Made by a program: the position numbers and the translations under genes. From positions 1 to 46,951 of IMG/VR virus record IMGVR_UViG_3300021185_002429: a stretch of DNA of 46,951 nt. One strand, 5' to 3'. The notes under the pieces were generated by a model that had not been told where the DNA came from, ran no database searches, and saw only the letters and a program-made list of their open reading frames with translations. This stretch comes from a virus. Positions 7,944-39,789 of the stretch are shown piece after piece (position 1 is the stretch's first letter; every line of letters begins with the position of its first letter).

Positions 7944-8663
7944 ATGGCTTTGCCGTTAGTGAATGCGTCTAAGTACGAGGCGACTATACCAAGTACTGGA
8001 CAGGTGATTGAGTTTAGACCTTTCTTAGTTAAAGAAGAAAAACTCCTTATGGTAGCTTTAGAATCGAAAGATGATAAACTTATCGTAAGAACAATGAAAG
8101 ATGTATTAAGTTCGTGTGTCTATTCGGATATCGATATTAATACTTTTACTACTTTCGATTTGGAAGAACTTTTTTTAAGGTTAAGAGCTAAATCAGTGGG
8201 AGAGAAAGTAGAATTAAATTTAAAATGTGAAGAATGTGATTATGAAAACCCACAAGTAGTTGACCTTGACGAGTTAGGTGTTAAGATTAACGAAGATAGA
8301 AATAATGTTGTTATGATTAATGACGAGGTTGGAATTGAGTTTAAATATCCGTCTTTGACTGATTTAGAAGGACTGAATGTAGTTAAAGAAGGAGATACTA
8401 AAGGACAACTTAAGGCGATGACGCATTTAATTATTAAAAGTATTAAGAGTATTTTTGATAATGATAATGTTTATCCAGCAGTCGATCAAACCGACGAAGA
8501 GTTGGAAAACTTTATCGATGCGTTAAACTCTAACCAGTTTAAAGAGATTTCTGAATGGTTAAGTAATATCCCATCGTTAATTCATAATATAGAATATAGT
8601 TGTAACAAATGTGGACACGAGAATAGTCTGGAGTTAAGAGGTCTCCAAAGTTTTTTTACTTAG
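7944..8663 (+). CDS. 26: Baseplate hub/chaperone protein gp26 (T4_baseplate family)
   Basis: This 239-residue protein matches the T4 gp26 family: N-terminal FRPFLVKEEKLLMVALESKD, a central LTDLEGL segment, and two CxxC knuckles (C95-E-E-C98 and C220-N-K-C223) that probably bind one zinc. A good Shine-Dalgarno (AGGAG) precedes it. The last codons before the stop are TTT TTT ACT TAG, preceded by T, making a T TTT TTT slippery heptamer at 8651-8657; the -1 frame stays open for 65 more residues with gp51-like sequence. In T4, 26 and 51 are adjacent genes. Confidence 0.87.
   Translation: MALPLVNASKYEATIPSTGQVIEFRPFLVKEEKLLMVALESKDDKLIVRTMKDVLSSCVYSDIDINTFTTFDLEELFLRLRAKSVGEKVELNLKCEECDYENPQVVDLDELGVKINEDRNNVVMINDEVGIEFKYPSLTDLEGLNVVKEGDTKGQLKAMTHLIIKSIKSIFDNDNVYPAVDQTDEELENFIDALNSNQFKEISEWLSNIPSLIHNIEYSCNKCGHENSLELRGLQSFFT
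8651..8657 (+). other. Candidate programmed -1 frameshift site (T TTT TTT)
   Basis: Seven Ts read in the gp26 frame as agT TTT TTT ACT TAG. A -1 slip gives TTT TTT TAC TTA GGC and fuses gp26 to the downstream open frame. The heptamer fits the X XXY YYZ rule and lies 3 nt before the zero-frame stop. The product would be 303 residues. Confidence 0.6.
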
Positions 8664-8854
8664 GCCTTTCACATGATAATCTCGTAAACCATTATAAAAC
8701 TAATTTCGCCATGATGCAGAATCATGGATATAGTTTAACGGAATTAGATAATATGTTACCATGGGAAAGGGAGATATATGTCGCCCTACTAGTAGAACAC
8801 ATTAAAGAGGAGAATGAGCGTAATAAGGCTCAACAGAAAAAATGGAAGAGTTAA
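8657..8854 (+). CDS. 51: gp51-like C-terminal extension, read by -1 frameshift (or short ORF from 8711)
   Basis: The -1 frame after the slippery site encodes YLGLSHDNLVNHYKTNFAMM, then NHGYSLTELDNMLPWEREIY and a charged helical tail ending in KKWKS. The pattern (membrane-free helical domain, PWEREIYV) resembles the small hub-assembly protein encoded after gp26 in T4-like marine phages and the T extension of lambda-type G/GT tail chaperones. An internal ATG at 8711 would give only 47 residues and lacks an obvious ribosome site, which favours frameshifting. It overlaps the next gene by 13 nt. Confidence 0.62.
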   Translation, partial: YLGLSHDNLVNHYKTNFAMMQNHGYSLTELDNMLPWEREIYVALLVEHIKEENERNKAQQKKWKS

Positions 8855-9177
8855 AAAAAGAAGATGTTAAGACAAGTTATCACCCAGCCGATACTAACGG
8901 TGATGGGAAAGTAACTAAGAAAGAACAAGAAATGTACTTAGAGTTTAAGAGAAAAGAACTCGAAGACGCTGATGCGATGAGAGACGCACAAAGAAAAATG
9001 GCATGGTTTGCGTTAGGTGGAATGTTGTTATATCCATTCGCGGTAGTTATCGCAGTACTCGCAGGACTAGACCAGGCGTCTAAGATACTAGGAGATATGG
9101 CGGCGACTTACTTCGTGGCTGTAGCTGGTATCGTGGCAGCCTTTTTTGGTTCACAAGCTTTCTCAAATAAAAAATAG
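8842..9177 (+). CDS. EF-hand membrane protein
   Basis: This 111-residue protein has a canonical EF-hand calcium loop at residues 17-28 (DTNGDGKVTKKE: ligands D17, N19, D21, T25, E28), a charged helix (about 29-50), then two hydrophobic segments (about 52-75 and 85-105) consistent with membrane spans. A single EF-hand before two spans would sit on one membrane face. It is placed between the gp26/gp51 pair and the tape-measure candidate in a late tail operon; possible roles are tail-tip membrane interaction or calcium sensing at entry or lysis. Function is unknown. Confidence 0.75.
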   Translation: MEELKKEDVKTSYHPADTNGDGKVTKKEQEMYLEFKRKELEDADAMRDAQRKMAWFALGGMLLYPFAVVIAVLAGLDQASKILGDMAATYFVAVAGIVAAFFGSQAFSNKK

Positions 9178-9189
9178 GAATAGTTAGAA

Positions 9190-11010
9190 ATGGCGGATAA
9201 TAAAAAGTTAAGACAAAAGACTTCTGATGCGAAGAAGGCAAATGACTTACAGAAAGAATTACTTGGAACCCAACAGAAAGAACTTCAACGTCAGTCCAAT
9301 CTTCAAGAAATTCAAGCCAAAATCCAAGAATCTTCTTTTACTGCTCAAAAGTTAAGAGATGTTGGTGATGTTAAGAATGCAAAATTAATAGAAGATTCTT
9401 TAAACTCCGTCCAAGAACTATTAGGTAAAAATAAAAACTCAAATTCGGTTGCGGCCAGACTAGAGGAATTAGTTGAAATTGAAAAAAGTGCCAATGCAGC
9501 CGCCAAAATTAATGCAGGTGCGTTTAAAGAACAAGCCGATGCATTAGAAAGAAATAATAAAGAACTAGAAAAGAAAAAGAAGAACGCCGAAAAGGCTGAA
9601 CAACTTGCGAAAGAGCAAAAGAAAGAAGATGATGAAAACTTTGAAAAATTAAAAGAAAGTTTAAAAGAGGAAGAAGAAACGTTAGGACTAAAAGGCCTTA
9701 CTGATAAAATAAAAGAAGATACAGAAAATGAAAAGGCCAAAGGAACTTTAGGTACTAATGACCTTGGTAAGAGATTAAGTGCATTAAGTTTAGGTGCACA
9801 AACCACTGACGAAAAGGAAAAAGCACAAACATTAAAAAATGCCTTTGGAGATGCTCAAAATAATTTAAAGAAGGCCTTGGCAAGTGGTGATGAAGAACAA
9901 ATTAAACTGGCCAGAAAACAAGTTCAAAATTTAGAAGATAGTGTTAGAAGTGAAGAAGAATTAAGAGAACAAAAGAAAAAGGCAGATGAATCAAATAGTA
10001 CTTTACTTGCGATTAGGGATCAGACCAAAGGTTTTAATGATAAATTAAAAGCTATGGCGAAAGGTGGTGGATTTATTGCTGGTATGGCCGCCATAGTTCT
10101 TGCAGTATTTAATCCTGAGGCATTATCGGCTATAGTGATGAAAGTTGTTGACTGGTTTAGTACAATAGTGGACGCATTAGAGGCATTGATTAATGGTGAT
10201 ATGGAAAAATTTAAAACCACTATTTTAGATAACTTTGGACTATTCGCAGGTTTATTAGGACTTGGTTTAGTATATTTTGGTCCTGCTCTACTATCTGGAC
10301 TCTTTACTGTAATGAATACAATGAAGGCCTTTAGAGGATTTATGTTAGTTACTGCGTTCCCTGCGATATCAGCATTCTTTACTGGTATGATGACAACTAT
10401 CGGGGCCGCATTAGTACCAATGTTACCTATTATCGGAATAGGTGCTGCTGTAGTTGCGATTCTTGGAGTACTACTCTTTGCGTTTCATAAATTAAGAGAG
10501 AGTTTAGGACCAGGTGCAAGTATTATGGACACTCTAAAAGTTGCAATGTTATATTTTGTTGATTTCTTATCAATGATTGTAAATGGAATTACATTCATAC
10601 CTAGAAAGATGATAAGTTTCTTAGGTAAGAGAGCCGCAGGGTGGATATTAGGAGATGATTTCGATACATCAGCATTGGATGCTATAGGTGAGGGTCTTGA
10701 TACAGGAAGAGGTAGAAGAGCAGCTGAAGAAATAAGGGCAAAGAATGAAGCAGCTGCCGCAGAAGAAGCCTTAGAAAAAGAAAGACAATCTAAAATTGGA
10801 ACTGGAGAAGGTTTCGATATGAGTGATCTAACATCTGAAAATGCAGATATTATGGCAGACTTACAGGCTCAAGGTTTCCAAGTACCTTCTGCTGTTCAAA
10901 CTAATGTACAAAATAGTTCAAGTACTTCACAATCAACTACTATCGTAACTGATAGACCTTCGCGTGCATCTTCAATTATCATGCACTATAATTCAGGCGA
11001 ATTCAGATAA
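9190..11010 (+). CDS. Tape-measure protein candidate (gp29 position)
   Basis: This 606-residue protein has residues 1-285 as almost continuous charged coiled coil (K/E/Q/A-rich). A hydrophobic core follows (about 290-315 and 345-440, e.g. IIGIGAAVVAILGVLLFAFH), then a flexible Ser/Thr/Gln tail. That plan (long coiled coil plus membrane-active segments) is typical of tape-measure proteins, and it sits after the gp26/gp51 chaperone pair as expected. T4 gp29 is 590 residues. No sequence motif proves homology to gp29. The operon ends here at a terminator. Confidence 0.68.
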   Translation: MADNKKLRQKTSDAKKANDLQKELLGTQQKELQRQSNLQEIQAKIQESSFTAQKLRDVGDVKNAKLIEDSLNSVQELLGKNKNSNSVAARLEELVEIEKSANAAAKINAGAFKEQADALERNNKELEKKKKNAEKAEQLAKEQKKEDDENFEKLKESLKEEEETLGLKGLTDKIKEDTENEKAKGTLGTNDLGKRLSALSLGAQTTDEKEKAQTLKNAFGDAQNNLKKALASGDEEQIKLARKQVQNLEDSVRSEEELREQKKKADESNSTLLAIRDQTKGFNDKLKAMAKGGGFIAGMAAIVLAVFNPEALSAIVMKVVDWFSTIVDALEALINGDMEKFKTTILDNFGLFAGLLGLGLVYFGPALLSGLFTVMNTMKAFRGFMLVTAFPAISAFFTGMMTTIGAALVPMLPIIGIGAAVVAILGVLLFAFHKLRESLGPGASIMDTLKVAMLYFVDFLSMIVNGITFIPRKMISFLGKRAAGWILGDDFDTSALDAIGEGLDTGRGRRAAEEIRAKNEAAAAEEALEKERQSKIGTGEGFDMSDLTSENADIMADLQAQGFQVPSAVQTNVQNSSSTSQSTTIVTDRPSRASSIIMHYNSGEFR

Positions 11011-38710: not shown

Positions 38711-39037
38711 TTACTTTTTCTTTACTTTTTGCTTCTCAAGTTTTTCAATTCTGGCGATTAGAGCTGAATATGCTTCGAACTCATGTAATTCCTTACATGG
38801 GTGTGAATTCTTTTCTATCTCGTCTAATCTTTGCGCGACTAAAGGATACTGTTTTCTAAATTTAGCATCCTTTTTCATGAGTTCTAATTCGTACTTCTCT
38901 GCAAAATATTGCATAAATTTATCTACTTGTTTTTGAAACCAAATACCAAGTGTAGTATCCTGGAACCATTTATAGAATGATGATCCTATAATAGATGATA
39001 GAATAGATTTTAGAGAGAGTACAATTAGCCAATTCAT
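38711..39037 (-). CDS. Conserved small phage protein with amphipathic start and coiled coil
   Basis: 108 residues: hydrophobic/amphipathic N-terminus (MNWLIVLSLKSILSSIIGSS), charged helical centre, coiled-coil end (YSALIARIEKLEKQKVKKK). A late box lies 22 nt before the ATG, inside the lipase end. Function unknown; possibly membrane-associated. Confidence 0.6.
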   Translation of the reverse strand: MNWLIVLSLKSILSSIIGSSFYKWFQDTTLGIWFQKQVDKFMQYFAEKYELELMKKDAKFRKQYPLVAQRLDEIEKNSHPCKELHEFEAYSALIARIEKLEKQKVKKK

Positions 39038-39789
39038 TTTTTTTCTGCCTTTTTAAGTTTATTTATAGCTTTTACATAGTTAGGCATACCATGGTCTACA
39101 ATACCATCAAAGAATTTAAATCTCTTCCATGAATTAATAATACCATAAAAAGTATCAGCCCATGATGGTCCTGCTGCTCTTTGACCATTTCTGTCAAAGT
39201 ATATCATAGCACCATGATGTCTAAACCCTAACCACGCTGGTGGTATTCTACATACGATATCATTATTATTCATAAATCTATAATGATCACATGTAATATG
39301 TCTTACAAATTTTGGACCACCAACTCTTGGTGAACCAAACGTGTGTAGTTCTTCAGGTGCATGTCTTGTGGCCGCAATTGTTGCCATTGCTGCACCTAAA
39401 CTATGACCAGTCATCCAAACATCTTTTACATTTCTTAACCCATCATTGTGTTCAATTTCTGCAAGAACATCCATCCATAAATCATTAACTTCTTTTTGGA
39501 ATCCACCATGTACTTTACCACCTGCCATTGCAGTTTGTTTAATAACATTTAAATCTGCCATAACATCATTTAATTTTGATGGTTCAGTACCTCTAAATGC
39601 AAACCATAAGTCTGTTCTATTCTTTGCGATGAGCACTTCTGCCCCGTCTCTACTAATTAACTTAACAGAAGTAAATCCTAATTTTTTACCTGCAGTCTCT
39701 GCTGGTTTTGGATTCATATAGGCAATCGCAGATAATTTTGCTGCAATTTCTGCCCTTTCCCATAAGTGTAAATCTTTTGCCTTTGCCAT
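39034..39789 (-). CDS. Class 3 lipase-type alpha/beta hydrolase
   Basis: 251 residues from ATG 39789 (AGAGG upstream; the longer frame runs into the next gene). Lipase_3 features: FRGT oxyanion region (65-68), nucleophile Ser130 in VWMTGHSLGAA, acid Asp177 (NNNDIVCRIPP) and His233 (IVDHGMPNY), a complete triad. No signal peptide, so it acts in the cytoplasm or leaves at lysis, or is packed in virions. It sits directly beside the spanin pair, which suggests a role in membrane breakdown at lysis. Confidence 0.87.
   Translation of the reverse strand: MAKAKDLHLWERAEIAAKLSAIAYMNPKPAETAGKKLGFTSVKLISRDGAEVLIAKNRTDLWFAFRGTEPSKLNDVMADLNVIKQTAMAGGKVHGGFQKEVNDLWMDVLAEIEHNDGLRNVKDVWMTGHSLGAAMATIAATRHAPEELHTFGSPRVGGPKFVRHITCDHYRFMNNNDIVCRIPPAWLGFRHHGAMIYFDRNGQRAAGPSWADTFYGIINSWKRFKFFDGIVDHGMPNYVKAINKLKKAEKK
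39060..39067 (-). promoter_or_regulatory. Late promoter box inside the lipase end
   Basis: Exact TATAAATA on the minus strand, 22 nt before the ATG at 39037. Confidence 0.6.

Follow-up and report, generated by a model that had tools for sequence, protein, structure and literature searches.

The window (the complete 46,951-base virus record IMGVR_UViG_3300021185_002429) contains a gp26-like gene that ends in a run of seven T's, and the frame one base back remains open past its stop codon. This raises the question of whether the second frame encodes a protein of its own or is appended to the gp26-like product by programmed -1 frameshifting, as was proposed in a preliminary description of the window. 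The neighbourhood of the slip site is T4-like, with genes for the DNA end protector, head closure, tail tube and baseplate wedge.

Organization of the gp26 end

The gp26-like gene (putative TAC-N; plus strand, 0 frame, 7944..8663) encodes 239 residues and is terminated by TAG at 8661-8663. Its product belongs to Pfam family PF12322, T4_baseplate (E=1e-61), and to phrog_150 (E=6e-65), which agrees with the original assignment as gp26, and it matches 1225 phage records. The last codons of the gene read AGT TTT TTT ACT TAG. The slippery heptamer T_TTT_TTT (plus strand, 8651..8657) lies in phase and ACT is the single sense codon between it and the stop. A heptamer in the correct phase, 3 nt ahead of the gp26 stop, is what the preliminary description had reported. 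The SD-like element AAGAGG (plus strand, 8636..8641), a candidate stimulator, ends 9 nt 5' of the first T of the heptamer.

After a slip by one base, the ribosome would read TTT TTT TAC TTA GGC and so on, with 65 further codons before a stop at 8852-8854. This extension (TAC-C, gp51-like; plus strand, 8657..8854) has the residues YLGLSHDN...KKWKS, and the predicted junction peptide of the fusion is ...LQSFF-YLGLSHDNLVNHYK. The sole ATG, GTG or TTG in the open -1 frame is the ATG at 8711, 18 codons into the extension. It opens a 47-aa ORF (plus strand, 8711..8854) that annotation programs could call as a separate 'gp51'; this ORF has no SD, and conservation extends to the 18 residues that precede it.

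Elsewhere in the window, a lipase-like ORF on the minus strand ends in an in-phase A_AAA_AAA (39034-39043) and is followed by a 107-codon -1 continuation. The run at 39043 was considered as a second frameshift site and rejected: an ATG overlaps the stop, and ordinary gene overlap is the simpler explanation.

Coding selection on the extension in the -1 frame

The 65-residue extension matches 592 phage records at E<=0.01, as expected of the conserved-looking open frame that had been described. Its gp51-like character is borne out by a match to phrog_634, 'baseplate hub assembly catalyst' (E=5e-28). The pooled pairwise dN/dS of the extension is 0.05 in the -1 frame versus 1.08 and 3.81 in the other frames; these values are rough because synonymous sites are near saturation, but the contrast between the frames holds. 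Within the clade of the window, linker codons 6–20 have a pN/pS of 0.083 when read in the -1 frame, versus 3.3 and 4.8 in the other frames. Furthermore, the first 21 codons of the extension are free of -1 frame stops in every sequence compared (0/258), while stops in the other frames are found in 255–258. As no standard start codon precedes the linker in the window, frameshifting is the simplest route to its translation.

These data bear directly on the possibility that the extension is a separate gp51 gene whose translation begins independently at ATG 8711 or is coupled to the termination of gp26. Such a gene is annotated at this place in most cyanophages (GenBank). Most relatives have an ATG 20–21 codons into the extension; in some cyanophages and vibriophages an ATG lies directly at the gp26 stop. 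The ATGs of the extension, however, have a mean SD energy of -1.8 kcal/mol, compared with -3.0 for random and -5.0 for gp26 starts, and in the window's clade the -1 frame codons ahead of the ATG show strong purifying selection. An independent gene also has no need of the in-phase T_TTT_TT that is present in 257/257 sequences. Independent initiation at ATG 8711 was rejected on the SD energies together with the selection on the preceding codons, in line with the earlier remark that such a start would yield only 47 residues and lacks a ribosome site. The ORF 8711..8854 is probably not an independent gene, and a second gene in either form, with its own start or coupled, is highly improbable.

Conservation of the slip site

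The window and its relatives, taken from phage records and viral contigs, form a comparison set of 258 sequences, in each of which the extension was located by profile. One contig (L023) begins 27 nt before the heptamer and was for this reason omitted from the frame counts; 257 sequences remain testable. The relatives include Pelagibacter, Methylophilales, Prochlorococcus and Synechococcus phages, Schizotequatrovirus vibriophages, an Aeromonas phage and a Pootjesviridae Agrobacterium phage. Those with the slip site span several phage families. Scans of viral contigs with divergent queries yielded no locus for the Agrobacterium extension and one locus for the Aeromonas extension.

At least six T's are present at the junction in 258/258 sequences. 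In all 257 readable sequences the first T of the run is a third codon base, and the extension is read in the -1 frame. The last base of the heptamer T_TTT_TT is C in 135, T in 106 and A in 17 of the 258 sequences. With three exceptions among the 257, the gp26 stop follows 0–1 codons past the heptamer (10 or 13 nt from the first T to its end). From codon usage alone, six T's would be expected in about 47% of cases per lineage, whereas their loss was observed zero times across the relatives, despite near-saturated neighbouring synonymous sites. The seventh base of the heptamer has changed at least nine times on the tree. The conserved slip site and the -1 frame coding are not due to chance.

The preliminary description had proposed to look in related phages for conservation of heptamer and frame, and had named as evidence to the contrary any relatives whose two frames are clearly separated or whose second gene has a strong ribosome site. 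Heptamer, phase and -1 continuation are kept in 257/257 testable relatives, and no relative of the contrary kind is found among the 257.

In Rhizobium phage RL38J1 the extension, annotated as a separate 'baseplate hub assembly catalyst', lies inside a 320-bp repeat that is annotated where the record begins (L009 1-320), so that the edge of the record truncates the chaperone gene. In a T4-like contig (L269 3001-3746) the gp51 match is broken in the single frame, perhaps by an indel or a sequencing error.

The length of the T run is relevant to a further possibility, namely slippage of the RNA polymerase on the T7 run. This would give mixed mRNAs, and the fusion would be made by normal translation of an altered mRNA. 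RNA polymerase slips on homopolymers, and the run comprises seven T's in the window and eight in a few relatives. In 152 of the 258 sequences, however, there are only six T's, followed by C or A, which is short for polymerase slippage. Since most relatives carry just six T's, this mechanism is unlikely. Furthermore, the conserved X_XXY_YYZ phase, the upstream SD-like element and the hairpin of cyanophages described below are marks of ribosomal slippage. Together, these observations leave transcriptional slippage a very low probability, though not a zero one on a T7 run. Judged from the sequences, programmed -1 frameshifting on T_TTT_TTT is the best explanation and very probably the correct one.

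Candidate stimulatory elements

Of 202 non-redundant relatives, 185 have an SD-like motif 8–9 nt 5' of the heptamer. Where a Glu codon occupies this site it is GAG in 85/108 cases, compared with 27% elsewhere in the same genes. The signal of the window itself is unremarkable (z -0.4), and the bias is a result at the level of the family. The motif resembles the SD stimulator of the E. coli dnaX frameshift.

In P-SSM2-like cyanophages, an 11-bp hairpin begins five bases past the heptamer. In P-SSM2 it is formed by AGTATGGCTCA...TGAGTCATACT, five bases 3' of T_TTT_TTC (L003 2492-2548), and it is present in most slip sites of the related cyanophage loci (L179-L258). Pairing is retained in 93% of cells, with 24 compensatory cells at one pair, compared with 25–44% in slid controls. 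In P-SSM2 and related loci the hairpin overlaps the ATG used by annotators as the gp51 start.

The window has no downstream hairpin at +7..+57 (-0.1 kcal/mol). A longer segment of the window folds no better than 19/200 shuffles, and no consensus structure was found downstream of the heptamer in the window's clade. On the tree, the hairpin state has changed at least 19 times. A link between T at the seventh base and absence of the hairpin was considered (Fisher p 5e-13) and rejected, as the tree-based sign test gives a median p of 1. Since the association disappears on the tree, it reflects shared ancestry.

One homologous slip site may have acquired lineage-specific stimulators, the hairpin in cyanophages and the T run with the SD-like element in the window's clade; this suggestion is tentative, with the odds somewhat against it. 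If it is true, the turnover of the hairpin is a natural series on how the ratio of short to long chaperone is kept with changing parts.

Relation to T4 gp26 and gp51 and to the chaperone fold

The gp26-like protein of the window aligns with T4 gp26 by BLASTP (25% over 230 columns), and T4 gp51 itself belongs to PF12322. The gp26 profile covers residues 14-200 of T4-type gp51 and the profile of the extension covers residues 200-247 (hhalign, E 1e-6, prob 91). The boundary between the two profiles on T4-type gp51 falls on the residue that corresponds to the slip codon. T4 gp51 accordingly consists of a gp26-like domain followed by the same extension, both read in one frame, which makes the product of the frameshift most likely a normal long chaperone and not a chimera.

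The AF2 model of the gp26-like protein (pLDDT 90.6) resembles most closely 3fgx (Z 8.1), the HK97 tail assembly chaperone (2ob9, Z 7.2) and YqbN (3klu, Z 6.9). Lower matches are 5ir0 (Z 5.4) and a next row at 4.4; all Z values are moderate. The matches to 3fgx, 2ob9 and 3klu involve residues 1-95 of the model. Foldseek gives a modest match to the HK97 chaperone (prob 0.77, E 0.45). No tail assembly chaperones are among the structure matches listed for a T4-type gp51 model, which was built from a shallow alignment of eight sequences. A sequence search of the PDB with the gp26 profile returned nothing meaningful.

Most likely, the locus encodes a pair of tail assembly chaperones, TAC-N and TAC-NC, as suggested by the predicted fold and by analogy with lambda. 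The frameshift had been thought to join two T4 baseplate proteins, a reading that reflects their older names. The homology to gp26 and gp51 stands, but a chimera of two baseplate parts is unlikely; in T4-like phages, gp26 and gp51 are more aptly regarded as tail assembly chaperones.

Proposed mechanism

The majority of ribosomes would end at TAG 8661-8663 and release TAC-N, the gp26-like short form of 239 aa. The others, a minority, would slip back one base on T_TTT_TTT, bypass the stop and append the 65 residues. The resulting long form, TAC-NC, would have about 303 aa and would be the counterpart of T4 gp51 and lambda gpGT. If the analogy with lambda holds, abundant short and scarce long chaperones coat the tape measure protein, and the appended domain recruits tail tube subunits. 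The level at which slippage occurs, namely translation, is what we infer here, as are its frequency and the chaperone function.

Downstream genes

The extension is followed by a gene for a 111-aa protein with hydrophobic segments (plus strand, 8842..9177). This protein is 74% identical over 98 aa to its counterpart in Pelagibacter phage HTVC008M and is far more conserved than gp26. It contains an EF-hand-like DTNGDGK motif, and its gene separates the chaperone gene from that of the candidate tape measure. The next ORF (plus strand, 9190..11010) encodes a 606-aa protein with coiled-coil and hydrophobic stretches. No family match was found for it. The HTVC008M gene at the equivalent place is annotated as putative tail tape measure, and the two products show a weak coiled-coil match. 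By position and composition, the 606-aa protein is a candidate tape measure protein.

Comparison with known systems

Frameshifting in the chaperone gene of T4-like phages is already known, and the window is a new, well-supported example of it. Vladimirov reportedly described such a TAC frameshift in T4-like phages in 2022; reportedly, the frameshift is retained across a number of T4-like groups, and T4 itself employs genes 26 and 51. At most, details of the stimulators are new, such as the hairpin that is common in cyanophages and absent from the window. The locus also matters for annotation: records of cyanophages, pelagiphages and vibriophages, hundreds in all, list a 'gp51, baseplate hub assembly catalyst' separately or miss it. 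Most likely, the gp51 annotated in those records is the frameshift-encoded end of the gp26 product.

The layout of lambda G/GT is the same, with a short chaperone and a form extended in the -1 frame. The slip sequence differs, being G_GGA_AAG in lambda and T_TTT_TTT here. The parallel to lambda that had been drawn is upheld, with the HK97 chaperone among the top folds of the gp26 model; the relation of the window's chaperone to that of lambda rests on this moderate fold match. In lambda, according to PMC5009743, the short chaperone and a low level of the -1 extended form are required for tail assembly on the tape measure protein.

An earlier review still lists T4 as the exception to G-T frameshifting. 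Two later papers cite the work of Vladimirov. One, PMC10885494, describes some T4-like phages that, in place of frameshifting, encode the short form and the long fusion in two genes. The other, PMC12846349, mentions polyT slippery sequences in the TAC-N genes of T4-like phages. The same paper, on phage Adele, proposes a TAC -1 frameshift for Vandenendeviridae and Andersonviridae at an invariant GTTTTT that ends TAC-N; these are other phage families than that of the window.

In T4, gp26 is homologous to the 0-frame product and gp51 to the entire product of the frameshift, with the junction at the corresponding codon. The two forms nevertheless derive from separate, divergently transcribed genes, whereas the window has one gene. 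The 3' end of T4 gene 26 reads GAG TTC TTT GAG, and both the T6 run and the -1 extension are absent from it. With divergent genes and no slip site in gene 26, T4 uses two genes for what its marine relatives appear to make by frameshifting. These observations support the view that T4 genes 26 and 51 are a split version of one gene that is frameshifted in marine relatives, and the long-puzzling 'hub assembly' proteins of T4 would thereby be tied to tail-length chaperones.
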